Source of the DNA: Methanoculleus marisnigri JR1
GTDB taxonomy: Archaea > Halobacteriota > Methanomicrobia > Methanomicrobiales > Methanoculleaceae
Length of the DNA stretch: 64,000 bases
Assembly: GCF_000015825.1 (NCBI RefSeq)
Contig: NC_009051.1
Span: 1,172,695 to 1,236,694, forward strand
Reading direction: 5' to 3'
Shown: positions 6,509 to 57,127 of the stretch, piece by piece
How positions within the stretch are numbered: the stretch's first letter is position 1
Layout: each line of letters opens with the position of its first letter
Made by a program: the position numbers and the translations under genes
The notes under the pieces: model-generated
Told to the model about the DNA's origin: nothing
The model's input: the letters and a program-made list of their open reading frames with translations, nothing else
Databases searched by the model: none

Positions 6509-6885
6509 TGTAGAGCACGGCAGAGGGCGGCAGGCGCCGCTGGTCTGCCTTCGAGGCTTCCGGACGGCACTCGAGTGCCGTTCGGCTGCAACACCTCTCT
6601 ATTTTTTTCTCTTACCACAACCTGCGGATATTGCCGGGTTGTTTCGTTTCTTTGAACAGCAGGCCGGAGCCCGGAGCGCCCGGAGTGCCCGGAGCGCGAA
6701 TCGGAGACATTCCAGAGATTGTCTTCTTCTCCTTTCGCCGATAGGGTGATGCCGCCGGGTGACGAACGTGTGGGGGGAATTGCCCCGATGCAGGCCGTGA
6801 TTTTTCCAGGTCGGCTTTTGTGGATTATTATCATAATATTTTTATATTACCACGCTCATTCCTCTGCTCGCAAGGGGGGATATGT
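6509..6885 (+). promoter_or_regulatory. Intergenic region: T-rich terminator, then promoter and RBS for the next surface-protein gene
   Basis: No gene is seen here. A pyrimidine-rich T run at 6596-6612 is a plausible archaeal terminator for the fasciclin gene. Short GC-rich repeats (cccggagcg, cccggagtg) occur near 6670-6700. An AT-rich box around 6833-6848 (cataatatttttatatta) is the likely promoter, and aagggggga at 6872-6880 is a strong ribosome binding site for the ATG at 6886. Confidence 0.5.
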
Positions 6886-9222
6886 ATGAGACGACCTGTA
6901 TTGTTCGGTTTGTGCATCATTCTCTTCCTATCAATCTCTGCTGCAAGTGTAGCGGTCTCGATTGGAGGAGGACCTGTTGAACTGAACCCTGATGAGACTG
7001 TGAACATCACACCGGTAAACAGTACCGAAACCTACGAGGTGCCGCAGACGACAGTGCTTGGAGCACTTGATGCTGCCTCGATCCTCGGATCATTCGAGTA
7101 CCAGGTTGCTGAAGACCTGCCTCTGGATGAGGAAAACCTCAGCATTCTATCGATTACCGACATTGAAAACGAGATTGTGAACGAGACTCCGAACAACTGG
7201 ACCTTCTGGGTCAACGACGAGCAGGCCACGACAGGGCCCGCGGTGACGAACCTCACCGACGGGGACAACCTGACCTTCTCCTACGGGCCCCCGTCGCACA
7301 CCCTGGAAAACGCCACGTATACCCTGATGGTGAACGTGACCGTTCTTGGGGCGGTTGTTACTCCGACGCCGACGGTGAACGTCACTCCGACGCCGGGAGC
7401 GAATGTGACGCCCTTCGTCAACGTCTCCGATCAGCCGATCGAGAACGATACGGTGATCGTTGACAACGCCACGATCAACCAGACGGGTTGGGCGGACATC
7501 CACGCGGACCTGAACGGAACGCCCGGGCCGATCATCGGCTACAGCCAGATCACCGAAGGCGTAAATGAGAACGTTTCCGTGGAGATCGAGGTCGAGAACG
7601 CCACGCCGGTGCTCTATGCCATGCTTCACATCGATGCGGGAGAGCCGGGCGTCCATGAGTTCCCGGGCCCCGACGTGCCGATCCTGGTGAACGGAAGCCC
7701 CGTCCAGCAGGCCTTCAACGTGACCGGGGGGCTGCCCGAAGAGAACGTTACGCCGACCCCAACGGTGAACGTTACGCCGAGTCCGACGGTGAACGTTACG
7801 CCGAGTCCGACGGTGAACGTTACGCCGAGTCCGACGGTGAACGTTACGCCGACACCGACGGTGAACGTTACGCCGAGTCCGACGGTGAACGTTACGCCGA
7901 GTCCGACGGTGAACGTTACGCCGAGTCCGACGGTGAACGTTACGCCGACACCGACGGTGAACGTCACGCCGACACCAACGGTGAACGTTACGCCGAGTCC
8001 GACAGTGAACGTTACGCCGAGTCCGACACCCGGTGCGAACATCACCGAACAGATCGTCGAGGGCCTTTCGGACCAGGAGAACCTGACGACGTTCGTTGAA
8101 GCGGTGAACAACTCCACTATCGGCGAGGAACTCGACGAGAACGAGAGTTACGTGATGTGCGCTCCGACCGACGATGCGTTTTCCGGGCTGGGCAACCGGA
8201 CGCTCTCGGTGATCATGGGCGACACGATGCTCTTAAACAAGATCCTCAGTTACCATGTCATCCAGGGTGATTACACGATCGAAGAGCTCGTGCAACTCTG
8301 CGAGAATTCGACCGACGGGCAGATCTCCCTGCCGACCGCTGAAGGATCGGAGGTTAATGTCTCGCTCACCGAGGACGGTCAGCTGACCATCAACAACATC
8401 ATCGTTGTGACCCAGATCCAGATCACGAACTACATCGTGGTCTACGTGATCGACGGTGTCCTGGTTCCGCCGGACACCCCGATCCCAACCCCAACACCGA
8501 CAGTGACACCAACCGCGACACCAACGGTGAACGTTACGCCGAGTCCGACGGTGAACGTTACGCCGACTCCGACGGTGAACGTTACGCCGACTCCGACGGT
8601 GAACGTTACGCCGACACCAACGGTGAACGTTACGCCGACTCCGACGGTGAACGTTACGCCGACTCCGACGGTGAACGTGACCCCGACGCCGACAACGCCG
8701 GAGGAGACCATGGATCTCCAGCTCTATGAAGGCTGGAACTTCGTCTCTATCCCGAGATCGCTCTCTGCGGGAAACGATACCGCAGCGTCGGTCTTTGCGG
8801 ACGTCGACACCGGCGGGCGGTCGATCTACACCCATACCCCGGCAGGCGGCTTCGAGCCCCTGGGCGAGAGCGAGATCCTGGAAGTCCTTGAGGGATACTG
8901 GGTCTACTCGACCGAGGAGACGACCGTGCAGCTGATGCTCAGCACCGACCCGGTGAGGGCACCCGCACTGAAGACGCTCAGCCCGGGCTGGAACGCCATC
9001 GGCTACTCCGACCTGACGGAGCGCAGTGCGGACGAGGCGCTCATATCGGTGGAAGACAACTGGGTCTACGTCGTCGGCTACGATGCAGAAGAGCAGAGTT
9101 ACCGGCCGGCGCTCATCAACAATGTGACCGGTGACCAGGGGGAGAACCAGAGACTCTCCCCGACCGAGGGTTACTGGCTGTTCGTGCGCGAGGATGGCAG
9201 ACTGGCTGCCATCAGCGCCTGA
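6886..9222 (+). CDS. Large secreted surface protein: DUF4430-like, DUF7282-like and FAS1 domains with VNVTP repeats
   Basis: 778 residues from the ATG with the strong RBS; an in-frame start 66 bases upstream would bury the signal peptide. Order: signal peptide (1-25); a DUF4430-like segment (about 40-150, with WTFWVNDEQ); a DUF7282-like segment (about 185-282, GWADIHAD and YAMLHIDAG); 11 octapeptide repeats PTVNVTP(S/T) (about 288-381); a FAS1 domain (about 385-528, VMCAPTDDAFSGL, YHVIQGDY); 7 more repeats (about 545-603); and a C-terminal domain with two GWN motifs (GWNFVSIP, GWNAIGYS). Almost every repeat carries an N-V-T sequon, so the linkers may be heavily N-glycosylated. No transmembrane anchor is visible. 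Likely an envelope or matrix adhesin. The DUF names are from memory of motif patterns. Confidence 0.85.
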   Translation: MRRPVLFGLCIILFLSISAASVAVSIGGGPVELNPDETVNITPVNSTETYEVPQTTVLGALDAASILGSFEYQVAEDLPLDEENLSILSITDIENEIVNETPNNWTFWVNDEQATTGPAVTNLTDGDNLTFSYGPPSHTLENATYTLMVNVTVLGAVVTPTPTVNVTPTPGANVTPFVNVSDQPIENDTVIVDNATINQTGWADIHADLNGTPGPIIGYSQITEGVNENVSVEIEVENATPVLYAMLHIDAGEPGVHEFPGPDVPILVNGSPVQQAFNVTGGLPEENVTPTPTVNVTPSPTVNVTPSPTVNVTPSPTVNVTPTPTVNVTPSPTVNVTPSPTVNVTPSPTVNVTPTPTVNVTPTPTVNVTPSPTVNVTPSPTPGANITEQIVEGLSDQENLTTFVEAVNNSTIGEELDENESYVMCAPTDDAFSGLGNRTLSVIMGDTMLLNKILSYHVIQGDYTIEELVQLCENSTDGQISLPTAEGSEVNVSLTEDGQLTINNIIVVTQIQITNYIVVYVIDGVLVPPDTPIPTPTPTVTPTATPTVNVTPSPTVNVTPTPTVNVTPTPTVNVTPTPTVNVTPTPTVNVTPTPTVNVTPTPTTPEETMDLQLYEGWNFVSIPRSLSAGNDTAASVFADVDTGGRSIYTHTPAGGFEPLGESEILEVLEGYWVYSTEETTVQLMLSTDPVRAPALKTLSPGWNAIGYSDLTERSADEALISVEDNWVYVVGYDAEEQSYRPALINNVTGDQGENQRLSPTEGYWLFVREDGRLAAISA
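7744..8029 (+). repeat. 24-bp tandem coding repeat, block 1 (11 units)
   Basis: Tandem 24-base units of the type ccgacggtgaacgttacgcc plus a variable last codon, encoding PTVNVTP followed by S or T. Units are nearly identical at the DNA level, including synonymous positions, which points to recent expansion by slippage or recombination. Confidence 0.95.
8521..8688 (+). repeat. 24-bp tandem coding repeat, block 2 (7 units)
   Basis: Same 24-base unit as block 1, mostly with the PT (not PS) linker variant, lying after the FAS1 domain. Near identity between the two blocks suggests exchange between them. Confidence 0.95.
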
Positions 9223-14202: not shown

Positions 14203-14345
14203 TATCTTCTCAAAATGTCTTACTCGCTTGCCGCGTTCCGGATGGGCGGGATTCAGGGGGGTCTGCGCCCTGAACGGAGGTTTCCGGCGGCAGGGACCCG
14301 AACTGAGGATAAATTATAAGTAATATGTGCGTGATGCCCCCTCCC

Positions 14346-14708
14346 ATGAGGCCAATCGCAGTACTTCTGGCGGTGCTCCTCATCCTGGGTGTGGGCATAC
14401 TGGCGGCAGGATGCACCATGCCGGGTGGAGACGGAACCCAGCAGACCCCGATGGAGACCGGGACCCCGATGGAAACGGAGACCCCGATGGAGACCGGGAC
14501 CCCGATGGAGACCGGGACCCCGATGGAAACGGAGACCCCGATGGAAACGGAGACCCCGATGGAAACGGAGACCCCGATGGAAACGGAGACCCCGATGGAA
14601 ACGGAGACCCCGATGGAAACGGAGACCCCGATGGAAACGGAGACCCCGATGGAAACGGAGACCCCGATGGAAACGGAGACCCCGATGGAGACCGGGACCC
14701 TGCCCTGA
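14346..14708 (+). CDS. Lipoprotein with 14 TPMETE/TPMETG hexapeptide repeats
   Basis: 120 residues. A hydrophobic signal (VLLAVLLILGVGIL) ends in the lipobox AAGC, so Cys23 or so would be lipid-anchored. After a short Gly/Gln linker the whole mature protein is 14 units of TPME-T-E/G, then TLP-stop. The ATG at 14346 is chosen over an upstream ATG because it gives a normal signal peptide. Mature composition is acidic with one Met per unit. Function unknown; perhaps a surface spacer. It faces the end of the giant surface protein gene at 14915. Confidence 0.7.
   Translation: MRPIAVLLAVLLILGVGILAAGCTMPGGDGTQQTPMETGTPMETETPMETGTPMETGTPMETETPMETETPMETETPMETETPMETETPMETETPMETETPMETETPMETETPMETGTLP
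14445..14696 (+). repeat. 18-bp tandem coding repeat, 14 units
   Basis: accccgatggaaacggag-type units (variant gagaccggg), 14 in exact tandem, encoding TPMETE or TPMETG. Nine consecutive units are identical at DNA level, indicating very recent expansion; copy number probably varies between strains. Confidence 0.97.
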
Positions 14709-14914: not shown

Positions 14915-17900
14915 TCAGCGCCGCTTCCTCGCCCAGAGGAGGAAGGCCAGCGGTGCGAGGAGGGGCGCGTAGACGAGCGGTGCCGTAGGTGTCGTCGCCG
15001 GCACGGTGGTCGGCTCCGTCGTTACGTTTCCGGTAACCTCAGGTGTCCCGGTAACTTCCGCTGTGATGTTCAACTCCTCCGCCGATGCGATCACGCTCAC
15101 GGGTGACGCAATGATGGCGAAGATGGAGAACCCGGGGGTGGTTGCCCGGAAGTTGTACTTGCTGTTCTCTTCGCCGATCACTTCGGTCTCCAGGGACTCC
15201 CAGATGCCGTTGACGTAGCGCATGAGGACAACGTCCTCCGCGGTCGCGTTGTGGCTTTCAAGCCAGTTGGCAGGGACGCTAAAGAATACCGTCGCGTTGC
15301 CGATCTGGTTTTGGCTCACCCATTGGGGGGTGATCTCGATGTACTCGTAGACGTCGCCAGCGGGAGGCTCCGCAGCCGAGGACGCTTTTGCCTTCTTCAC
15401 GGTCAGCATCATCTTCGGGATGGTGCTGGCTGCCGTGACGTTCACGCTGCTGACCGATGTGACGCTGATATCCGAGAAGGTGAACGTCTCGCCGCTTCTC
15501 AGGTTCTCACGTATCCCTGCGGAGAAGGAGGGAGTGCTGTCACCGCCGCCACTGCTGCCACCGCTGCCGCCGCTGCCGGGGGTGGGTTCAGGTGCAACGG
15601 TTGCCGAGACGGTGACTGCTGCTGTTTCTGCCACGTCGCCTACCGATGCCGTTACGTCCGTCGATCCCTCTGCAAACGCTCCAAAGAGGCCGGCCCGGTC
15701 GATCGTGCCGACCTCAGGGTTGGAGGACGACCAGGTTACCCTGATCCAGTCCATCTCGTTGTCGCGCTGGTCAAAGACGGTTGCCGTGAACGCTTGGGTC
15801 TCTTCGGGCAGGATCGTGGCCGTGGGCGGTTCGATCTCGATCCGCGTTGCGACCTGCGACGATTCGACGGTCACGGTCGCGGTCCCGGTCTCGTTGTCTG
15901 CAGTAGCGGTGATGGTCGCTGTGCCTTCGGTAAGCGCGCTGAAGAGTCCGTCGGCATCGATGGTGCCAACGGCCTCGTCGCTGCTTGTCCAGTTCACCGT
16001 GGGATCGGATGCGTTGTCCTGCAGGTCATATACGGTCGCGGTGAACTGCCACTCGTCCCCCAGGTCCAGGATGATCGCCGACGGGGAGACCGCAACGCCC
16101 GAGGTTGACGTGGTGACGGTTACCGCCGCGGTCCCGGTTATGTTTCCTGCCGCTGCGGTGATGGTCGTCGTGCCGTCGGCAACCGCGGAGAAGACGCCGT
16201 CCGCATCGATGGTCCCGACGGTCTCATCGCTGCCTGTCCAGTTGATCTCGACGTCGGTCATGCTGGTGCCGAACTGGTCGAAAGCGGTCGCGGTGAATGT
16301 CGCGGTGTCATTTTCGGCGAGCGTGATTGCCGATGGTGCGACAGCGATGCTGGCGAGAGCCGGCTCTTCGTCGTTGACGGTGATGGTCGCCGTCGCGGTT
16401 ACGTTCTCTGCCGTTGCGGTGACGTCCGCCGTGCCTTCGGCGAGGGCGGTGAAGGTACCGTTTGCGTCGATCGTGCCGACGGTCTCATCGCTGCTCGTCC
16501 AGGCGATCTCAACGTCGGTCATGACGGCGCCGTCCTCGTCACGAGCGGTCACGATGAACAGCTGGGTATCGCCGATCGCGAGGGTGGCCTCGGGCGGTGT
16601 GATCCGGATGCTCTCCAGGACCGGTTCAGCCGGCTCTTCTTCGTTGACGGTGACGAGCGCCGATGCGGATGCATTGCCCGCCGTTGCAGTGACGGCCGTT
16701 ATACCCGCGGCAAGGGCGGTGAAGGTACCGTTCGCGTCGATCGTGCCGATGGTCTCGTTGCTGCTCGCCCATTCGATCTCAGCCTCCGGCAGTTCGGCGT
16801 CGAACTGGTCATAGACCGTCGCGGAGAAGTTTACCGTCCCGTTGACCGTGGCGGCGGTTGTGAGCGGTGTGATCTCGATCCGCGTTGCGGTCGGATCACC
16901 CGTCGCTCCGGCGGTGACGGTGACGGTAGCTTCTCCGGTTACGTTCTCCGCCGTTGCGGTAACGTCCGCCGTACCTTCGGCGAGAGCGGTGAAAACTCCG
17001 TCCGCGTCGATCGTGCCGACGGTCTCGTTGCTGCTCGCCCATTCGACATCGATGCCGGTCATGGCGCTGCCGAACTGGTCGCGAACGGTTGCCGTGAACG
17101 CTTCAGTCTCGCCGATCGCGAGCGTGGCTGTGGTCGATGTGACCTCGATGCGATCGATGACCAGCTCTTCGGCACTGACGGTGACGGTTGCGGTTTCGGT
17201 TGCGTTGCCTGCCGTTGCCGTGACGTCTGCCGTGCCCTCAGCATGAGCGGTGAAGACACCCTCCGTACTGACCGTGCCGACGGTCTCATCGCTGCTCGCC
17301 CATTCGACCGCAACCTCCGACATTTCTTCGTCGAACTGATCAAAGACAATTGCGGAGAACTCCACCGTCCCGTTGATCGCGAGCGTGGCCGTGGTCGGTG
17401 TGATCTCGATGCGTGTTGCAGCCGGGTCGGTCGGCTCTTCGCCGTTGACCGTGACGGTAGCTTCTCCGGTTACGCCCTCCGCCGTTGCGGTGACGTCCGC
17501 CGTGCCTTCGGCGAGGGCGGTGAAGACTCCGTCCGCGTCGATCGTGCCGACGGTCTCGTTGCTGCTCGCCCATTCGACATCGATGCCGGTCATGGTCACG
17601 CCGTCCTGGTCGAGAACGGTTGCCGTGAACGCTTCAGTCTCGTCGACCGCGAGCGTGGGCGTGGTCGGTGTGACCGTGATGGTCGTTACAACCGGCTCGC
17701 TCGATTCTGACCCGTAGATGAAGATGTAGATGTTCGAGTTAATGCCCGTGCCTCTCTGCCAGACGATCGTGTTGCCGCTGGCGGCCGGGTAGAGTTGTTC
17801 ATCGTAGATATCCTCGGGCGCGAATACGGACATCTCCTCCCCGCCGGTGGCAAGGTCGTACATGTAGATGCCCCGCGGCCCATCCTGCATGTCCTCCCAG

Positions 17901-18754
17901 GCGATGATGTTCTCGCTGAGCGCCGGCGAGACCTGATAATTAGGGGCGTTTGTGATCTGCTGCTCCCCGCCGGAGGGATTATCGAGGTCCATCAGGTAGA
18001 TCTCGGGATCCTGGATGCCGGATCTGTTAAGGTAACACTCCCAGGCTATCTGGCTCCCGTAGAGCGAGGGCCAGGAGTGGCGGAGCCCGGTCCCGGACAC
18101 CTGCATCTTCGTCTCGTCCGCGATGTCGTAGTACCAGGCCCGTTCGTCCGCCTTTTCTATCCAGGCGACGTACTTCTCCGAGAGCGCGGGCTTGACCCCG
18201 GTAGCCCCGTCGGGAATCGTTGTCTTTGCGTCAGCGTCGATGGTGGCCTTCACGGCCCCGGCGGCGATGTCGTAGAGGACGATCTTCGTGTCGCCGCTAC
18301 TGTCGTCGTACCAGGCGACGTAGTTCCCGCGGACGATGGGCAGCCACTGATCGCCTGTGTCGGTGGTGAGTTGTGTCTCTTCACCCGTCGAGCGCTGATA
18401 GAGGTAGATGTCCCAGTTCCCGTTGCGGTCATCCTGCCAGACGATGTAGTCGCCCGAGATGGACGGTTTCTCCTGCGAGGCGTCATCGGATGTTATCCTC
18501 TCGCCGACGCGGGTGGTGGTTAACGGTGGTTTGTTCCGGAATTCGTCTACGGTTCCAAAGTAGATGTCTTTGTTACCGTTTCGATCGTCTTCCCAGACGA
18601 TCATGTCGCCGTCGATATCAGGACGTTCCTGCGCGTTTACGAAGGGGCGATAGATCTCCTCCCCCGACGCCGCTTCCACCGCCATAACCGGCGAGGTCAA
18701 CAGCCCGATGATAACGACTGCGCACAACAGTGCCAGATACGTGTGTTTTGTCAT
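14915..18754 (-). CDS. Giant surface protein: beta-propeller, 8 Ig-like (Big2) repeats, PGF-pre-PGF-type domain, C-terminal anchor
   Basis: 1279 residues. The ATG at 18754 follows a strong aaagggggg site. Signal peptide 1-30. A TolB-like propeller follows (about 35-365) with seven blades, each with a strand like SGDYIVWQDDRNGNWDIY. Next come eight ~88-residue Big2-type Ig-like repeats (core W-x-S-S-x-E-T-V-G-T-I-D, then GTADVTATA). A Gly/Ser linker leads to a PGF-pre-PGF-type domain (SGETFTFSDI, FRATTPGFSIFAI). A Thr/Pro stretch and the hydrophobic tail YAPLLAPLAFLLWARKRR end the protein, like archaeal surface anchors. Almost cysteine-free after the signal peptide (one Cys in a propeller blade). 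It is a tandem paralog of 19110-23195. Probably an S-layer-associated or adhesive protein. Confidence 0.88.
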   Translation of the reverse strand: MTKHTYLALLCAVVIIGLLTSPVMAVEAASGEEIYRPFVNAQERPDIDGDMIVWEDDRNGNKDIYFGTVDEFRNKPPLTTTRVGERITSDDASQEKPSISGDYIVWQDDRNGNWDIYLYQRSTGEETQLTTDTGDQWLPIVRGNYVAWYDDSSGDTKIVLYDIAAGAVKATIDADAKTTIPDGATGVKPALSEKYVAWIEKADERAWYYDIADETKMQVSGTGLRHSWPSLYGSQIAWECYLNRSGIQDPEIYLMDLDNPSGGEQQITNAPNYQVSPALSENIIAWEDMQDGPRGIYMYDLATGGEEMSVFAPEDIYDEQLYPAASGNTIVWQRGTGINSNIYIFIYGSESSEPVVTTITVTPTTPTLAVDETEAFTATVLDQDGVTMTGIDVEWASSNETVGTIDADGVFTALAEGTADVTATAEGVTGEATVTVNGEEPTDPAATRIEITPTTATLAINGTVEFSAIVFDQFDEEMSEVAVEWASSDETVGTVSTEGVFTAHAEGTADVTATAGNATETATVTVSAEELVIDRIEVTSTTATLAIGETEAFTATVRDQFGSAMTGIDVEWASSNETVGTIDADGVFTALAEGTADVTATAENVTGEATVTVTAGATGDPTATRIEITPLTTAATVNGTVNFSATVYDQFDAELPEAEIEWASSNETIGTIDANGTFTALAAGITAVTATAGNASASALVTVNEEEPAEPVLESIRITPPEATLAIGDTQLFIVTARDEDGAVMTDVEIAWTSSDETVGTIDANGTFTALAEGTADVTATAENVTATATITVNDEEPALASIAVAPSAITLAENDTATFTATAFDQFGTSMTDVEINWTGSDETVGTIDADGVFSAVADGTTTITAAAGNITGTAAVTVTTSTSGVAVSPSAIILDLGDEWQFTATVYDLQDNASDPTVNWTSSDEAVGTIDADGLFSALTEGTATITATADNETGTATVTVESSQVATRIEIEPPTATILPEETQAFTATVFDQRDNEMDWIRVTWSSSNPEVGTIDRAGLFGAFAEGSTDVTASVGDVAETAAVTVSATVAPEPTPGSGGSGGSSGGGDSTPSFSAGIRENLRSGETFTFSDISVTSVSSVNVTAASTIPKMMLTVKKAKASSAAEPPAGDVYEYIEITPQWVSQNQIGNATVFFSVPANWLESHNATAEDVVLMRYVNGIWESLETEVIGEENSKYNFRATTPGFSIFAIIASPVSVIASAEELNITAEVTGTPEVTGNVTTEPTTVPATTPTAPLVYAPLLAPLAFLLWARKRR

Positions 18755-18945
18755 TCGTTTCCCCCCTTTGCACGAATCGCTCTCCACCTGCGGGTCCGTG
18801 GGTGCCTACCTGCCGGTAGGCGCGAACGGACTGGCCAAGGCGGGCGCTTACCGGAGCACCCGACAGGTGTGCTGCGTGTTCCGATTTAAAGCCCGGTCAT
18901 AGGGTGGCCGGTGAACGGGTGAAAGGTGGTATAAATATATATCCT
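18755..18945 (-). promoter_or_regulatory. TATA box and ~175-base leader of the first giant surface-protein gene
   Basis: On the minus strand a TATA-like atatatttat lies at 18931-18942, some 180 bases before the ATG at 18754. The TATA region and much of the leader are similar to the segment upstream of the paralog at 19110-23195 (TATA 23364-23375). A long, conserved leader could be regulatory. Apart from this, nothing is seen between 18755 and 19109. Confidence 0.5.
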
Positions 18946-19095
18946 TTACGGTGATTTATTCATGGAATTTTATAATAAAAACCAGAATACTTTATCCGCC
19001 TGTATGGCCGCAGGGGGATCCGAACAGGTCCTCGTTACCATCTCGATGGAGAGAGGTGACTGGGGCAGCACCTGGCCGAACCGTCCCCGAGCGTC

Positions 19096-19109
19096 AAAAA
19101 AAAAGAGAT
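19096..19109 (-). terminator. T-run terminator of the cysteine-rich surface-protein gene
   Basis: Nine consecutive T on the minus strand (19096-19104), a few bases after the stop codon at 19110-19112. Confidence 0.55.
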
Positions 19110-22100
19110 TTAGTGGTTCTTTCTCGCCCAGAGGAGGAAGGCCAGCGGCGCGAGGAAGGGTGCGTAGACGAGCGGTGCTGCAGGCGTCGTCGTCGCTGCG
19201 ACGGGTGGTTCGGTCGTCATCGTCTCCGCCCCTTCGGGCGTCCCGGTAGCCTCCGTCGTGACGTTCGTCTCCGTCGTCATGGTCGCGTTCTCCGGCATTG
19301 CGGCGATGGCGAAGGTGGAGAACCCGGGGGTGGTCGCCTGGAAGTGGTAATTCCCGTTCTCTTCACCGATGACCTCGGTCTCCAGGATCTGCCATCCGCC
19401 GTCGACGTAGCGCATGAGCCTGACATCCTCCGGGAGCATGCCGTGCTCCTCGAGCCACTTCGCCGGGACGATGAAGGTCAACGTCGCGCCGCCGATCTGG
19501 TTCGGGTTCGCCCACGAGAGGCTGATCTCGACGTACTCGTAGGTGCTGCCGCCGGGAGGCGACGCCGGGTTGGGGCACCCCGTCTCCTTCACGGTCAGCA
19601 GCAGCTTCGGGATGTTGTCGGACGCCGTGATGGCGATGCTGCCGATCGACGTGATGTCGATACCCGAGAACGTGTGCGTCTCGCCGCCCTTCAGGTCCTC
19701 GCAGGCCCCTGCGAAGAAGGTGGGGCCGGTATCGCCGCCGCCGTCGCTTGAGGCGCTTCCGGTCGATCCGCCGTTGTTCCCTGGCGTGGGATCGATCGTG
19801 GGCGCCGCCGTGACGGTGACCGATGCCGTTTCTTCAACGCCGCCGGCACACGCCGTCACGTGCGTGAAGCCCTGCGAGAACGCTGCGAAGAGGCCGGCCC
19901 GGTCGATCGTGCCGACATCGTCGTTGGAGCACGACCAGGCTACCCTGACCCAGTCCATCTCGTTGTCGCACTGGTCGAATACCGTGGCCGTGAACTCCCG
20001 GGTTCCTCCGGCCGTGAGCGTGGCTTCAAGCGGTTCGACCTCGATGCAGGCCGGAACCGGGAGCGAGGGCAGAACGGTCACGCAGGCGGAGCCACAGACT
20101 CCGTCGGCCGATGCGATGAGTTGCACCTCGCCGTCGCAGAGCGCGGTGAAGACGCCGCACTCGTTGATGGTGCCGACGCACGGATCGCTGCTCTCCCAGG
20201 TCACATTGGCGTCCATGGGAAGACCGTACTGGTCGAATCCCCTGGCGGTGAGCGCCAGGCAGTTCCCGGCAGGGATGCAGAAGTCGGGCGGGCTGACCTC
20301 GATCCGCGTAAGTTCCGGTGCCGTCGAGCTGACGGTCACCGCCGCGGTTCCGGTCGCGGTCTCGTTCTCTCCGTCAACGGTTGCGGTGACGGACGTGGTG
20401 CCGCTGGCGAGAGCGGTGAAGAGGCCGTCTGCGTCGATCTCGCCGATCTCCGGGTCGGCGCACGACCAGGTCACGGTAGAACCTACGTTGTCCTGCAAGT
20501 CATACGCGTCTGCATTGTCCTGCAGGTCATACACGGTCGCGGTGAACTGCCACTCGTCCCCGGGATCCAGGATGATCGCCGACGGGGAGACCACGACACC
20601 TGCGGATTCATTGGTGACCTCTACGTCCGCCGTCCCGTTGACGCCGTCTGCCGAAGCGATAACGGTCGTGGTGCCCGCGGCGAGAGCCGCGAAGAACCCG
20701 GTATCGTCGATCTCGCCGACGGTCTCATCGCTGCACGACCAGTTGATCTCGATGTCGGGCATCTCGCAGCCGTCCTGGTCGAGAGCGGTCGCGGTGAACG
20801 TCGCGGTGTCATTTTCGGCGAGCGTGATTGCCGCCGGGGTGACGACGATGCTGGAGAGGACCGGGTCGTCACAGTTCACGGTGACGGTTGCGGTTCCTTC
20901 GGCACAGTCTCCGCATGCGGTGATGGTCGCCGTGCCCGCGGCGAGAGCGGTGAAGACGCCGCACTCGTTGATGGTGCCGACGCACTCGTCGCTGCACTCC
21001 CAGGTTACTCTTGCGTCCTCGACGATCTTACCGGACCGGTCGAACGCGACGGCGTCGAACTCCAGTTCGTCGCCGACCTCGAGCGTGGCCGCGGACGGCA
21101 CGACCGCGATCTTTGCGAGCGCAGGGCATTCGCTGATAGTGATGGTCGCGGCCTCGGAGAAGTCGCCTGCCGTTCCGGTTACGGTCGCCGTACCCGCGGC
21201 AAGGGCGGTGAAGCATCCGTTCGCGTCGATGGTGCCGACGCCCTCGTCGCTGCACGACCAGGCGATCTCACCGGCGGACATGGTGTTGCCGTTCTGGTCA
21301 TAGGCCGTCACGATGAATCTCTGGATGTCGTCGACGTCCAGGGTGGCCCGGGACGGCGTGACCGTGATGTTCGTGAGCACCTGTTCGCCGGGGTCATCTG
21401 TGCTGACGGTGACGCCCGCGGTTCCGGAGGCTTCCCCGGCCGTCGCGGTGACGGTTGCGGTGCCTTCGGTCTTCGCGGTGAAGAGGCCGTCCGTGTCGAT
21501 GGTGCCGACGGTCTCGTCGCTGCACGACCAGTCGACCGCAACACCGGCCATCTCGCCGCCGAACTGGTCGCGGACGGTTGCCGTGAACTGCTGTGTGGCG
21601 TCGACCTTGAGCGTGGCGGTGGGCGGTTCGATCGCGATGGTATCTGCGACCGGCGTTTCGGTGCTGACGGTGACGGCCGCCGTTCCGGTGACGTCGCCTG
21701 CGGACGCGGTGACGGTCGCGGTGCCGCTGGTGAGAGCGGTGAAGATACCGTCCGTGTCGATCTCGCCGACGGTCTCGTCGCTGCACGACCAGTCGATCGC
21801 AACGCCGGTCATCTCTTCTCCGAACTGGTCAAAAGCGGTTGCCGCGAACTGTTGCGTGCCGTTGACCGCGAGCGTGACGGTGGTCGGTTTGACCGTGATG
21901 CTCGTCAGTTCAGGCTCATCATCGATGACCGTGACGGTCGCGGTTGCGGTGATGCCGCCAGCCGACGCGACGACGGTCGTCGTGCCTGCTTCGTAAGCAA
22001 TGAAGTAGCCGCCGGAATCGACGAATCCGACGGTTCCGTTGTCGCACGACCAGGAGACCTCCAGATTGGGCATGGCTTCATCGTTCTCGTCGTAGCAGGT

Positions 22101-23195
22101 GGCGTTGAACTTCATCTCATCGCTGATATCCAGCGTAGCTTCAGACGGTTCAACCTCGATCCTCGCGACCACGCCCGGCTCTCCTTCGGGATCGTAGATG
22201 AACGCGTAGAGGTCTGAGGTGGTATCGCGGGCTTTCTGCCAGACGATCATGTTTCCGCTGGCGGCGGGGTAGAGTTGTTCGCCGCCGGCGGTGGGTACGG
22301 CCATCTCCTCACCGTCGGGGAGGTGGCTGAGGTCGTACATGTAGATGCTTCTCGGTGCGTCCCGCTTGTCCTCCCACGCGACTATCTGTCCGGTGAGCGC
22401 CGGCGCAACCTGTTCGGAGCCGTCGGAGGTGATCCTATGCTCCCCTTCGAACGGGTCGTCGAGATTGGTCATGTAGATGTCGGGGCTCGCATTCCGGTTA
22501 TCCTCCCAGGCTATGATGCCCCCGTAGAGCGAGGGCCAGGACTGAATCGCTGTGTTCGCGGATACCGGCCCTTTCATCTCACCGGCGGCGATGTCGTAGT
22601 AATGAACCCTTTCGTCTGCTTCTTCGACCCAGGCGACGTACTTCTCCGAGAGTGCGGGCTTGAACTCGGTGCTCCCGCCGGGGATCGTTGTCTTCGCGTC
22701 GCACTCGATGACATCTTTCACGCTGCCGGCGGCGATGTCGTAGAGGACGATGTTGGTATCGCCGCTGCTGTCGTCGTACCAGGCAACGTAGTTCCCGCGG
22801 ACGATCGGCAGCCACTGGTCGCCTGTGTCGTCGGTGAGTTGTGTTTCTTCACCCGTCGAGCGCTGATAGAGGTAGATATCCCAGTCCCCGTTCCGGTCGT
22901 CCTGCCAGACGATGTAGTCACCCGAGATGGACGGCCTCTCCTGCGAGGCGGGATCGCTGGTTATCCGGTCGCCGGTATAACCGGGTGTATCCGAGAAGTA
23001 GATGTCCTTGTTTCCGTTCCGGCCGTCTTCCCAGACGACCATGTTCCCGTCGACGTCGGGGTTCTCCTGCGACCCGGGGAAGACGGCAAAGGGTACCAGT
23101 TCTCCCGGAGCAATCTTTGCCGCCATAACCGGCGACGCCAGCAGCCCGACGATGACGACTGCACAAAGCAGCGTCAGATACGTGCGTTTTTTCAT
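19110..23195 (-). CDS. Giant cysteine-rich surface protein, paralog with propeller and 9 Ig-like repeats
   Basis: 1361 residues, same architecture as 14915-18754. Signal peptide (KKRTYLTLLCAVVIVGLL), seven-bladed TolB-like propeller (about 35-365), nine Big2-type Ig repeats, Gly/Ser linker, PGF-pre-PGF-type domain (FHFQATTPGFSTFAI region), Thr/Pro stretch and hydrophobic tail ending LLWARKNH. The repeats read W-S-C-S-D-E-T-V-G where the paralog has W-x-S-S. Eight of nine repeats carry this Cys, and repeats 5, 8 and 9 hold four to seven Cys each, about 30 in the mature protein. Repeat 7 also has an internal nine-residue tandem duplication (YDLQDN). The ATG at 23195 follows aaggggg. An extracellular disulfide-stabilised or metal-binding variant is plausible. 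Confidence 0.88.
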   Translation of the reverse strand: MKKRTYLTLLCAVVIVGLLASPVMAAKIAPGELVPFAVFPGSQENPDVDGNMVVWEDGRNGNKDIYFSDTPGYTGDRITSDPASQERPSISGDYIVWQDDRNGDWDIYLYQRSTGEETQLTDDTGDQWLPIVRGNYVAWYDDSSGDTNIVLYDIAAGSVKDVIECDAKTTIPGGSTEFKPALSEKYVAWVEEADERVHYYDIAAGEMKGPVSANTAIQSWPSLYGGIIAWEDNRNASPDIYMTNLDDPFEGEHRITSDGSEQVAPALTGQIVAWEDKRDAPRSIYMYDLSHLPDGEEMAVPTAGGEQLYPAASGNMIVWQKARDTTSDLYAFIYDPEGEPGVVARIEVEPSEATLDISDEMKFNATCYDENDEAMPNLEVSWSCDNGTVGFVDSGGYFIAYEAGTTTVVASAGGITATATVTVIDDEPELTSITVKPTTVTLAVNGTQQFAATAFDQFGEEMTGVAIDWSCSDETVGEIDTDGIFTALTSGTATVTASAGDVTGTAAVTVSTETPVADTIAIEPPTATLKVDATQQFTATVRDQFGGEMAGVAVDWSCSDETVGTIDTDGLFTAKTEGTATVTATAGEASGTAGVTVSTDDPGEQVLTNITVTPSRATLDVDDIQRFIVTAYDQNGNTMSAGEIAWSCSDEGVGTIDANGCFTALAAGTATVTGTAGDFSEAATITISECPALAKIAVVPSAATLEVGDELEFDAVAFDRSGKIVEDARVTWECSDECVGTINECGVFTALAAGTATITACGDCAEGTATVTVNCDDPVLSSIVVTPAAITLAENDTATFTATALDQDGCEMPDIEINWSCSDETVGEIDDTGFFAALAAGTTTVIASADGVNGTADVEVTNESAGVVVSPSAIILDPGDEWQFTATVYDLQDNADAYDLQDNVGSTVTWSCADPEIGEIDADGLFTALASGTTSVTATVDGENETATGTAAVTVSSTAPELTRIEVSPPDFCIPAGNCLALTARGFDQYGLPMDANVTWESSDPCVGTINECGVFTALCDGEVQLIASADGVCGSACVTVLPSLPVPACIEVEPLEATLTAGGTREFTATVFDQCDNEMDWVRVAWSCSNDDVGTIDRAGLFAAFSQGFTHVTACAGGVEETASVTVTAAPTIDPTPGNNGGSTGSASSDGGGDTGPTFFAGACEDLKGGETHTFSGIDITSIGSIAITASDNIPKLLLTVKETGCPNPASPPGGSTYEYVEISLSWANPNQIGGATLTFIVPAKWLEEHGMLPEDVRLMRYVDGGWQILETEVIGEENGNYHFQATTPGFSTFAIAAMPENATMTTETNVTTEATGTPEGAETMTTEPPVAATTTPAAPLVYAPFLAPLAFLLWARKNH

Positions 23196-23400: not shown

Positions 23401-23652
23401 TTTTATAATAAAAAAAGGGATCTCTCAGGCGTCCTTACGGGCAGAGGGGGATCCGGAAGGGGCCTTCTCCGGCTGTTGTCTGACGGATCGCGGGGAGGTA
23501 GCCCGGGGCGTGTATTCGCCCTGGAATCGATAAGGCCGGTAATTTTTCACCCAAATCCCCGCAGAAGAACCGGCGGCCGTATCCGGTCGGCGCATGCGGG
23601 GGTTACAGACGCCGCACTCCGGGAGGAGTATGAGAATGCCAACCCCCTGTTC

Positions 23653-23991
23653 TCAGAGCGGGAAGATCGCGTACTGGATGTACCAGATGTGCTGCACCGC
23701 GGGTATCCAGAAGTGATAGCCCTCCCAGCAGCCGGTGGCGAACCGGAAGTCGACGACGAGTTCCCACGCGAGCGGAAAGAGCATCAGCACCGGGACGGCG
23801 TAGGCGAAGAGGCGGGGGGAGGCCCGGCGGGCGAGCACGGCGGCATAGAGCGCCGCAACACCGGGCAGGGAAATAACGGTAGATACTACGGACCACAGCA
23901 ACTTCCAGAGGATTGTGATCGGGAGCCACCGTTGCAGGCAGACCTTCAGGATCTGCCTTTTGGTGACCTGAACTTCTGTTTTGTTCCGCAT
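23653..23991 (-). pseudogene. 3' fragment of a multi-helix membrane protein gene (copy 1)
   Basis: The last ~80 codons (YAAVLARRASPRLFAYAV, then FPLAWELVVDFRFATG and WYIQYAIFPL-stop) are nearly identical to the end of the gene at 24993-25757. Upstream of about 23890 the similarity fades into unrelated sequence (MRNKTEVQVTKRQ). As it stands it could encode 112 residues with two or three helices, but it looks like a truncated duplicate. The family resembles archaeal polytopic glycosyltransferase-like membrane proteins, which I cannot confirm. Confidence 0.7.
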
Positions 23992-24114
23992 TTCAACCGT
24001 CCAGTCTGGAAACAATCGTAAAGAGTTTAATTGTTGAAACACCAGTATTTTTACAGAATTCGTATCTTCGGCAGCCCACGGCCGTTTTCTGAGGTGATAA
24101 TTATACCAGAGATC

Positions 24115-24792
24115 ATGCCCTCCCCCAGGGGAGTTAATATCTACATCGACGAATCCGGGGATCTTGGATTTACTGGAGAGCTCTCTCCCTACTTTATCAT
24201 CGCAGCAATAATCGCACAGGGCCCGGAACAGGTTCAAAAATGTAGGACCTGTATGAAACGAACCATGAGAAAACTCCCAAAGAAGTACAAAAATATTGCA
24301 GAACTCAAATATCACAATACAGATGATACGTACAGGAGGCGTATTTTAGAGGATTTTTCAAAAACAGAGATTGAAATTGCATATGTGGTTCTCAGGAAAG
24401 AACAGGTTTACGATAATCTAAGGAATAACCGTCAGATATTGTATAATTATCTCACAGGCTCGCTTGTTGCAAATATAATCTCGAAATACGGATTTTCCCA
24501 TGAAATTAATGTGATCATAGATAAGTCTCTTGATGGAGTGAGCCGGGAAGAGTTCGACAAATACCTTATATATCGCTCTCTGGATCGAGACAATTCGTAT
24601 CACACGGGAAACTATCAATTAGAAGTAACCCATGTTGATTCGAAACAGAACCTCTGCGTACAGGCAGTTGATTTCATAGCAGGAGCGATCCATAGACATT
24701 ATAGAGGACATGCGCCCATGGCAGATCACTATCACATCATCGAAGGAAATATAACGGTTGTCCTTGATTATTTCAAAGGCCGTCAAAAGTAG
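24115..24792 (+). CDS. DUF3800 family protein
   Basis: 225 residues from the ATG at 24115, which puts the family motif NIYIDESGDLGF near the N-terminus as usual. A TTG at 24031 would add 28 residues. DUF3800 features present: the DESGD acidic motif, FIIAAII strand, KRTMRKLPKKY, INVIIDKS and the C-terminal QAVDFIAGAIHRHY. The fold is related to RNase H-like enzymes and members often sit in mobile or defence regions. AT-rich compared with flanking genes, with different codon use (many aaa, ata, aga), so probably acquired. It lies between two partial copies of one membrane gene. A small hairpin (24825-24838, ccgcct/aggcgg) follows. Confidence 0.85.
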   Translation: MPSPRGVNIYIDESGDLGFTGELSPYFIIAAIIAQGPEQVQKCRTCMKRTMRKLPKKYKNIAELKYHNTDDTYRRRILEDFSKTEIEIAYVVLRKEQVYDNLRNNRQILYNYLTGSLVANIISKYGFSHEINVIIDKSLDGVSREEFDKYLIYRSLDRDNSYHTGNYQLEVTHVDSKQNLCVQAVDFIAGAIHRHYRGHAPMADHYHIIEGNITVVLDYFKGRQK

Positions 24793-24992: not shown

Positions 24993-25757
24993 TCACAGCG
25001 GGAAGAGCGCGTACTGGATGTACCAGATGTGCTGCACCGCGGGTATCCAGAAGTGGTAGCCCTCCCAGCAGCTGGTGGCGAACCGGAAGTCGACGACGAC
25101 CTCCCAGGCAAGCGGGAAGAGCATCACCACCGGGACGGCGTAGGCGAGAAGGCGGGGGGAGGCTCGGCGGGCGAGGACGGCGACATACAGCACCGCGGCT
25201 CCGGCGAGGAAGATGCAGGTGAGGGTCGTGACGAACGTGACCTGCCCCGCGTGGTTCTGGCTGGCGATGACCTGGAGGACGATGAAGATGAGCGGGAGGT
25301 CGATGACCGCGAGCCAGAAGAGGGTCTTGAGGGATTCCCGCACCTCGTCGCCATCCATCCCGGCGTGCTTCAGGGCATAGACCCCGATGACGAGCATGGG
25401 AAGATAGGCCGGGGAGAGGTAACGCATGTCGGGGATGATACCGGGGCTTGCCGACATTCCGGGGATGGAGCGGGCGTAGGTGAGCACCACCAGGACGGCG
25501 GCGAGGGCGAAGAAGGCGAGGAGCCGAGCGTCCCGTGAGTCGATCCCGGTCGATCTCCGGCGGATGATGGCGTAGCCGATTACTCCGGCGAGGAGGAGGG
25601 CGAAGAACGAGACCGGCGAGACCTGGAAGAACGCGGCGGATCCGGCACGGGGCGTTTGAGGTACGTGTTGTACCCGACATGGGTTGTGGTCGTGGGGAGG
25701 TTCGTCGGGAACGAGTCGTGAATATTGTTTGATAGGACGGTTTGAGGGGGTTGATTA
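24993..25757 (-). pseudogene. Truncated, probably frameshifted multi-helix membrane protein gene (copy 2)
   Basis: The frame ending at 24993 encodes about five membrane helices (SFFALLLAGVIGYAII, LLAFFALAAVLVVLTYARS, PMLVIGVYAL, LPLIFIVLQVIAS, LTCIFLAGAAVLYVAVL) and ends WYIQYALFPL. Near 25640 the plausible upstream coding, NIHDSFPTNLPTTTTHVGYN followed by TYLKRPV, lies in a different frame, so a one-base shift separates the parts. Homology-like coding stops near 25757. A GTG at 25490 could still start a 165-residue protein. I read it as a decayed C-terminal part of a larger polytopic membrane protein. Confidence 0.6.
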
Positions 25758-28422: not shown

Positions 28423-29577
28423 TCAAAGTCCGGAACGTATTTGTTCTTCAATAAAAACCTGCATTTCATCTTTTCCCGGCAATTTTAGCAGATACCTGGA
28501 GACGAAGAGATTGTTGTCCATGCCTGCCAGAGCGTATTCCACCAGCGCCTGATTTTTGTGGGTGCAGAGCAGGATGCCCACCGGCGGGTTATCTCCCTCA
28601 GTCATCACGTTCTCTCTATACCAGCTCACGTAGGTGTTAAGTTGGCCAATGTTTTCATGACTGAAACCATCCAGTTTCATCTCCACCAGTACATGGCATT
28701 TGAGAATACGGTGGTAAAAAACCAGGTCCACAAAAAAATGCTCGCCGCCAATGAGTATGCGTTTCTGCCGGGCTTCGAAACAGAATCCGTGGCCTAACTC
28801 GAGAAGAAATGCTTCCAACCTCTTGAGGAGTTGACTTTCCAGATGTGATTCGCTCATTACTTCTTCAGGCTTGAGTCCCAGAAATTCGAAAATGTAGGGG
28901 TCACGGATAGCCAGATTAGGCTTGGCCTGCTCTGCATTCTGCTGTGCCAGCTCTGAAAGTTTCTTTTTATCGGTCGAGAGCCCGGAGCGTTCATAATATA
29001 GACTGTTGATCTGACGTTTCAACTCGCGCACCGACCAATTGCCGCGAATGCACTCGACTTCATAAAAAGCGCGCCTGGTTTCGTCCTCCAGATTGATGAG
29101 CTCCGCGAGATGGGTAAAGGAGAGTCTGGAGATCAATATCTTCCCTGCAATGCGGGATTGTGGAGTCGCTGACTCCACAATCAGAGATCTGCTATCCTGG
29201 AAGTCAATCCCCGATCCAGCGAAAAGTCTCTGCCGAACCGATGCATTCAGGAACTGCGTCAATTGTGGAGGCAGTGCCCCCACAATCTGTGGATAGGTGA
29301 GATAGAACCGCCGATATCGGTACAACTCCCGACGGTCGCAACGTGATATCTCCTGAGCCGTCAGAATTTCTGCAAGCCTGTCCATCAGCCTGTCTCCATA
29401 ATCCGCACGATCAATGCCGGAACGCTCGTATTCCTCAATGTAGCAACCAATGAGCCAGTTTCTGAGCGTCAGGCTGTTATTGACCGCACGACTGGCCTGA
29501 GTAACCAGTTCATCATGAAAGTGATGGATAGACCCTACCAGTCCATCAAAATTGAATATCGGCTCTTCCGTACTCAT
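28423..29577 (-). CDS. DUF1016 (YhcG-like) PD-(D/E)xK nuclease family protein
   Basis: 384 residues, close to the family norm. The N-terminal half (about 1-180) has the DUF1016 N-domain (NSLTLRNWLIGCYIEEYER, REL-YRYRRFYLTYP, SFTHLAELI). The C-terminal PDDEXK half carries FEFLGL (about 222), LELGHGFCFEARQKRI, then FFVDLVFYHR and HVLVEMK, giving the D and E-x-K of the catalytic core. Then GQLNTYVSWYRENV and GILLCTHKNQALVEYAL. Relatives are found in restriction/defence islands and are thought to act on DNA. AT-richer than neighbours. It sits between the two halves of a broken MNT/HEPN pair, suggesting insertion there. Confidence 0.9.
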   Translation of the reverse strand: MSTEEPIFNFDGLVGSIHHFHDELVTQASRAVNNSLTLRNWLIGCYIEEYERSGIDRADYGDRLMDRLAEILTAQEISRCDRRELYRYRRFYLTYPQIVGALPPQLTQFLNASVRQRLFAGSGIDFQDSRSLIVESATPQSRIAGKILISRLSFTHLAELINLEDETRRAFYEVECIRGNWSVRELKRQINSLYYERSGLSTDKKKLSELAQQNAEQAKPNLAIRDPYIFEFLGLKPEEVMSESHLESQLLKRLEAFLLELGHGFCFEARQKRILIGGEHFFVDLVFYHRILKCHVLVEMKLDGFSHENIGQLNTYVSWYRENVMTEGDNPPVGILLCTHKNQALVEYALAGMDNNLFVSRYLLKLPGKDEMQVFIEEQIRSGL

Positions 29578-56679: not shown

Positions 56680-56731
56680 GCGACGTTCCGTTAGGAACGG
56701 AGCTCGAGAAAACGCGACGCGTTTTCGAAGG

Positions 56732-57127
56732 GCGACGGGCCGAAGGGCCGGAGTTTGAGCGCCGCAGGTGCGATGGCGACGGGCCGAAGGGCCGGAGTTT
56801 GAGCGCCGCAGGTGCGATGGCGACGGGCCGAAGGGCCGGAGTTTGAGCGCCGCAGGTGCGATGGCGACGGGCCGAAGGGCCGGAGTTTGAGCGCCGCAGG
56901 TGCGATGGCGACGGGCCGAAGGGCCGGAGTTTGAGCGCCGCAGGTGCGATGGCGACGGGCCGAAGGGCCGGAGTTTGAGCGCCGCAGGTGCGATGGCGAC
57001 GGGCCGAAGGGCCGGAGTTTGAGCGCCGCAGGTGCGATGGCGACGGGCCGAAGGGCCGGAGTTTGAGCGCCGCAGGTGCGATGGCGACGGGCCGCCAGGA
57101 ACGGAGATTAAGCGCCGCAGCACGAGC
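56732..57127. repeat. 44-bp tandem array, eight near-perfect units plus a degenerate ninth
   Basis: Unit gcgacgggccgaagggccgg (first 20 of 44) repeats every 44 bases from 56732, 56776, 56820 and so on to 57040; the unit from 57084 diverges. Flanked by short inverted repeats of related sequence: gaaaacgcgacgcgttttc near 56707-56725 and gaaaacgcttcgcgttttc near 57225-57243. The bases in between (56680-57301) hold no gene; a reverse copy of part of the unit lies around 57247-57270. Confidence 0.95.

Follow-up and report, generated by a model that had tools for sequence, protein, structure and literature searches.

A cysteine-rich surface stalk and its cysteine-poor twin at one locus of Methanoculleus

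What does an exported protein of a strict anaerobe do with 30 cysteines, when its neighbour of the same design has one? This question is raised by two tandem genes on the minus strand of a 64,000-nucleotide stretch of the Methanoculleus marisnigri JR1 genome (hereafter the window, whose positions are used throughout): P0002 (19110-23195), which lies upstream, and P0001 (14915-18754), which lies downstream. In obligate anaerobes, cysteine (Cys) is reportedly excluded from exported proteins (PMC12453122). A Cys-loaded exported protein clearly departs from this exclusion when a genus keeps it in the absence of the usual enzymes of oxidative folding; the best explanation of the data is that the Cys-rich form represents an old stalk lineage in Methanoculleus.

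One design, two cysteine contents

Both proteins share one layout, which consists of a signal peptide, a propeller of TIGR04275 repeats, an array of immunoglobulin-like (Ig) domains of the Big_2 family and a PGF-pre-PGF domain, followed at the C-terminus by a hydrophobic stretch that ends in basic residues. A preliminary description, made from the sequence, had recognized a propeller, eight or nine Ig repeats and a PGF-pre-PGF domain in each product, and this architecture is confirmed, with coordinates and frames right and family matches far above the cut-offs. Specifically, Big_2 (PF02368) matches eight domains of P0001 with 288 bits and nine of P0002 with 230 bits (Pfam cut-off 22.8), the TIGR04275 repeats score 190 bits over six stretches and 239 bits over seven, respectively (cut-off 85), and the PGF-pre-PGF model TIGR04213 scores 123 and 106 bits (cut-off 28). 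AlphaFold2 models nine well-formed beta-sandwiches in P0002 and eight in P0001, with a mean predicted local distance difference test score (pLDDT) of 85 and 84. No further Big_2 genes are present in the whole genome. For both proteins we infer a cell-surface location. The PGF-CTERM model matches neither of them (NCBIfam up to E = 10, where filters may drop short models); all family members end instead in a tail with the consensus APLVYAPxLAPLAFLLW plus basic residues, which is possibly an undescribed sorting signal. The genome furthermore has one exosortase-family gene (L183).

The proteins differ in their cysteines. P0002 has 31, one in the signal peptide and 30 in the mature protein, and P0001 has two, C11 in the signal peptide and C240 in the propeller. 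These mature counts of 30 and 1 in tandem genes agree with the earlier picture of a Cys-loaded and an essentially Cys-free version of one architecture side by side. Across Ig1 to Ig9 of P0002, the domain hidden Markov model assigns 2, 1, 1, 3, 7, 3, 1, 7 and 4 cysteines (matches of adjacent domains may overlap by one or two residues and count linker cysteines twice), and the clusters previously noted in repeats 5, 8 and 9 are thereby recovered, as is the total of about 30. The W-x-S-S core described for P0001 is found in seven of its eight repeats, the remaining one reading W-T-G-S, and C240 is indeed its only mature Cys. The corresponding W-x-C-S, which had been read in eight of the nine repeats of P0002, holds in part: W-x-C is present in eight, but the fourth residue is Ser in only six of them, with W-S-C-D in Ig1 and W-S-C-A in Ig7, and Ig8 has W-E-S-S.

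With 30 Cys in about 1335 residues, mature P0002 is 2.2% Cys, as against means of 0.54% in exported proteins (n = 46, 25 of which have no Cys) and 1.40% in soluble proteins (n = 247) of the same genome, sampled over 464 kilobases (20 stretches of 20 kilobases plus the window) with a crude gene caller and signal-peptide rule. These figures, together with the recurrence of the Cys-rich state across the genus, indicate that the load exceeds chance. A search of 35 Methanoculleus genomes for DsbA (PF01323) and VKOR (PF07884) gave no match, with control genomes positive; DsbB itself was not searched. Because the sampled exported proteins are Cys-poor, in keeping with the reported exclusion, and these matches are missing, P0001 is the ordinary case and P0002 the exception among the exported proteins of their genome, and the lack of DsbA and VKOR leaves no known oxidant for P0002 disulfides.

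Two clades at a shared locus

Orthologs were drawn from the same 35 genomes. About 19 have only the Cys-rich form, with 12 to 30 Cys counted from the start of Ig1 and some genes fragmentary. Four (M. marisnigri JR1, G005, G008 and G017) carry the tandem, always with the rich gene followed by the poor one, G028 and G034 have the poor form alone, and the drafts G015 and G018 display only the poor form. The two forms therefore do not always co-occur, which the preliminary description had put up for checking. Where the flanks are visible they are constant: DUF488 borders the locus at one end, and the opposite side has P24993, a family of small membrane proteins, together with P26193 and a type IV pilin. 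Because the flanks match in this way, one syntenic locus carries the rich form, the poor form, or rich then poor.

Rich and poor proteins form separate clades, with support of 99/92 in an unrooted propeller tree and of 99/98 in a tree of the C-terminal part. The poor clade is supported by 98/95 in an outgroup-rooted propeller tree, in which it is nested within the rich clade. A single rich clade is not rejected, however, once propeller rows that are possibly recombinant or foreign, or long-branched, are removed (approximately unbiased test, p-AU 0.38). Cys loss as the direction of change, which the first rooted tree had suggested, is thus not upheld. The same result qualifies the initial notion of a protein "converted to a cysteine-rich form": there are two separate clades, and Cys may have been gained or lost. 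Taken together, the phylogenetic data support Cys richness as an inherited property of a clade, and not as a one-off. Outside Methanoculleus, a search of the order returned other Big_2 proteins, with no full-length relative among the matches listed, and a scan of viral contigs gave no match.

A separate observation concerns the stalk genes L074 and L075 (in G031 and G009), whose propeller is divergent and whose C-terminal part falls within the rich clade, where L074 is nearly identical to L077. The propeller of both was likely replaced through recombination.

Putatively buried and surface-type cysteines

An alignment of 284 unique domains of the family gave a numbering of 96 columns for the Ig domain. 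The Cys of W-x-C falls in column 51, where 135 of these domains have Cys; in 44 domains it is the sole one. Being two positions beyond the core Trp, column 51 should face the core. Depending on the domain, 60-90% of Cys-rich orthologs retain the motif, and the others mostly have Ser instead; together with the lone Cys domains, this does not support the purifying selection that had been postulated for this single repeat position. Cys is likewise mostly single in 151 Big_2 domains from other proteins of the order, where it favours core-type columns (34, 51 and 79, for example). From the alignment, the column 51 Cys is most likely buried, a thiol without a partner at a core position that ordinary Big_2 domains fill with Ser.

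This raises the question whether the cysteines might be free thiols throughout, with Cys merely a small residue that is tolerated in a reducing habitat under relaxed constraint. Such a reading draws on the single step from AGC to TGC, on the exchange of W-x-C and W-x-S among orthologs, on the lone core Cys of other Big_2 domains in the order and on the failure to find the oxidative folding enzymes DsbA and VKOR. It would also accommodate those P0002 cysteines that are weakly kept (0-25% of rich orthologs), namely C690 and C764, which are unique to P0002, and C661, C979, C1020 and C1034, which occur in a quarter or fewer of the orthologs. The low Cys content of the sampled exported proteins, more than half of them devoid of it, indicates however that Cys is not freely tolerated outside the cell, and C1038 is present in 20 of 20 rich orthologs, with several other cysteines at 80-90%. 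Free thiols throughout are thus rather unlikely.

The second class of Cys lies at columns 5 or 7, 12, 38, 40, 55, 62, 78, 21 and 87, which are mostly polar in the consensus, and is found mainly in Ig5, 6, 8 and 9. Its members in P0002 include C775, C810, C1013, C1038, C1050 and C1076, which are retained in 80-100% of Cys-rich orthologs (80% for C775 and 85% each for C810, C1050 and C1076). C775 and C810 are lost jointly in L068 and L050, and C1050 and C1076 in L062 and L063. By Ig topology, both candidate pairs sit at the domain end that faces the preceding domain. A mean-field coevolution analysis over 434 Big_2 domains, which at an effective depth of 194 sequences counts as weak evidence only, suggests a pairing of strand C with strand F that brings 47 to 77 and 51 to 73, and places 57 against 65; in this register, columns 51 and 78 as well as 55 and 62 would not be neighbours, and 12-38 would be possible. 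Columns 11-37, which neighbour those of C1050 and C1076, are weakly coupled in the same analysis. Because they are best kept and partly lost together, C775-C810 and C1050-C1076 appear the likeliest local disulfides.

Several observations weigh against these pairs. C775 occurs without C810 in L052 and C810 without C775 in L079 and L073, and similarly C1050 is found without C1076 in L064 and C1076 without C1050 in L079. The best-correlated partner lies in the same domain for 13 of 39 cysteines, versus 12% expected, but within-domain correlation is not clearly above that between domains (permutation p 0.16), and a tree-based co-change test, in which changes are few, yields nothing convincing within pairs once 1176 tests are corrected for. 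The co-occurrence of cysteines may therefore partly reflect shared ancestry or segment swaps. A general pairing scheme built on co-occurrence, for which the raw counts are strong, was given up because of this confounding by ancestry and segment linkage, and pairing was kept for the two best-kept pairs only.

The preliminary description had also offered disulfide-stabilised Ig domains as one possibility. In the full form of this reading, nearly all 30 cysteines would be paired within or between neighbouring domains, resulting in a rigid, protease-resistant stalk. The clusters in Ig5, 8 and 9 are compatible with this model, as is the excess of even over odd counts (83 versus 44) among domains with at least two Cys, and Deinococcus HPI, with one disulfide that is conserved and another that is putative, provides a precedent (PMC10120038). 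Conversely, domains with a lone column 51 Cys are common, odd mature totals are about as frequent as even ones across orthologs, 51/78 and 55/62 are apparently non-adjacent in the weak coevolution map, and DsbA and VKOR have no match. In classical disulfide-bonded Ig domains, moreover, the cysteines lie on strands B and F and flank the Trp of strand C (PMC12051499); in the stalk family, neither of the F-strand core columns 75 and 77 has Cys in two or more of the 284 domains, so that this B-F bridge is absent. A fully paired array is regarded as unlikely.

Two further functions come into view with the surface-type cysteines. The clusters of Ig5 and Ig8 could bind a metal (Zn, Fe-S or other), given several Cys per domain and the WECSDEC and CGDC motifs of Ig5. 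The second Cys of CGDC, C764, is however the one found in P0002 alone, columns 51, 55, 62 and 78 lie at different ends of the sandwich (by Ig topology and the weak coevolution map), and no metal-site family was matched in Pfam/NCBIfam domain searches. Metal binding is accordingly very unlikely, and for the metal or thioester chemistry first proposed no supporting motif was seen. Alternatively, surface cysteines might tie neighbouring stalks or envelope proteins into a sheath through inter-molecular cross-links, which would suit their position in the membrane-near half, the odd totals that leave a Cys unpaired and the fold resemblance to surface-layer (S-layer) arrays. As several genomes manage with the Cys-free form at the same locus, this option is most improbable.

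The data are compatible with a model in which P0001 and P0002 would be exported and anchored at the C-terminus, with the propeller borne on a long Big_2 Ig stalk and the PGF-pre-PGF domain at the membrane. In the rich stalk, the W-x-C residues would stay unpaired and buried, filling a core position, and the surface-type cysteines of Ig5, 6, 8 and 9 would make a small number of local, covalent staples at the domain end that forms the joint. These staples, C775-C810 and C1050-C1076 foremost, would stiffen the membrane-near half. This anchored stalk, in which cysteines serve two separate jobs, is put forward tentatively, at rather less than an even chance. A variant, in which a disulfide-reinforced anaerobic stalk is built without DsbA or VKOR by means of some other oxidant and the Cys-free twin serves other redox conditions, seems doubtful.

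Genomic setting and known systems

Table 1. Features of the tandem pair, with positions in the window
Feature	Positions	Strand	Remarks
P0002, Cys-rich surface protein	19110..23195	minus	1361 amino acids; 30 mature Cys
P0002 propeller	22194..23117	minus	7 TIGR04275 repeats; one Cys (C165)
P0002 array	19791..22193	minus	nine Big_2 Ig domains; 27 Cys
P0002 C775 and C810	20766..20873	minus	linker before Ig6 and BC loop of Ig6; best candidate local disulfide 1
P0002 C1050 and C1076	19968..20048	minus	strand A and end of strand B of Ig9; candidate local disulfide 2
P0002 PGF-pre-PGF domain (TIGR04213)	19302..19694	minus	C1207 inside, C1165 just N-terminal
P0002 C-terminal hydrophobic segment and basic tail	19113..19193	minus	APLVYAPFLAPLAFLLWARKNH; family-conserved
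P0001, Cys-poor paralogue	14915..18754	minus	1279 amino acids; one mature Cys (C240)
P0001 propeller (TIGR04275)	17720..18682	minus	
P0001 array	15605..17689	minus	eight Big_2 Ig domains; zero Cys
P0001 PGF-pre-PGF domain	15107..15508	minus	

The surroundings of the pair provide additional observations. The P24993 family, which has no Pfam match, is represented on the minus strand at 24993-25490 and at about 23603-24315, and one to three copies accompany the stalk gene across the genus (L060, L062, L064, L071 and L077); the family may belong to the stalk module. A DUF3800 gene (24031-24792) sits between the two copies and shows 99-100% identity to its counterparts in L060 and L064; since the adjoining stalk proteins are much less alike, this identity suggests a recent transfer. 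A YhcG-family gene (28423-29577) is 94-100% identical in L060. Just past the 3' end of P0001, a small predicted lipoprotein on the plus strand (14325-14708) consists mostly of an 18-base-pair tandem repeat (METETP, about 14 copies). Elsewhere in the window, a plus-strand surface protein (6820-9222) has two NVTPTPT/NVTPSPT tracts (24-base-pair repeats, 11.9 and 7.4 copies) around a putative fasciclin-like middle domain, and a 44-base-pair unit forms a tandem array at 56731-57120 (8.8 copies, 98% match).

In the open-licence literature searched, no paper on this gene pair was found. Because exported proteins avoid Cys and the usual disulfide enzymes are missing, the pair constitutes a natural test of extracellular Cys in anaerobes. 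In turn, the Cys-free twin is a ready-made control at the same locus, which makes extracellular disulfide formation in a strict anaerobe directly testable.

Among known systems, the bacterial and archaeal S-layer Ig arrays (SbsC, Sap, EA1 and Deinococcus HPI) are similar in that consecutive Ig-like domains build a large surface protein; SbsC matches the stalk in sequence and fold, and Sap and EA1 match in fold. In HPI, the conserved disulfide lies within HPI2, and the further, putative one would link HPI5 to HPI6 (PMC10120038). As to the regular surface lattice that defines an S-layer protein, the resemblance is one of fold only; the stalk pair differs in having a propeller, a PGF-pre-PGF domain, 30 Cys, a Cys-free twin and a strictly anaerobic host. 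The Lig proteins of Leptospira, whose solved domains are among the sequence matches, also present tandem Big_2 domains at the surface, but have other partner domains and another anchor. To our knowledge, they bear no comparable Cys load. The VARTIG proteins of Thermococcales (arCOG07710) are archaeal surface Ig arrays with conserved Cys, for which the original authors consider disulfide formation or covalent linkage (PMC8416519); these are however two cysteines in the most distal Ig domain, compared with about 30 across the array, and the locus and domains differ. Methanoculleus itself encodes exported surface proteins with a related propeller (for instance G000:C1:610156-611688), in which putative PKD-like domains replace Big_2, the C-terminal region is another and the whole frame has 8 Cys. 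Surface proteins built as Ig arrays are thus already known, some of them with disulfides (PMC10120038, PMC8416519); the Methanoculleus stalks stand apart in that a strict anaerobe with neither DsbA nor VKOR carries such a Cys load, that the load is concentrated in four domains and that a Cys-free twin shares the locus genus-wide.

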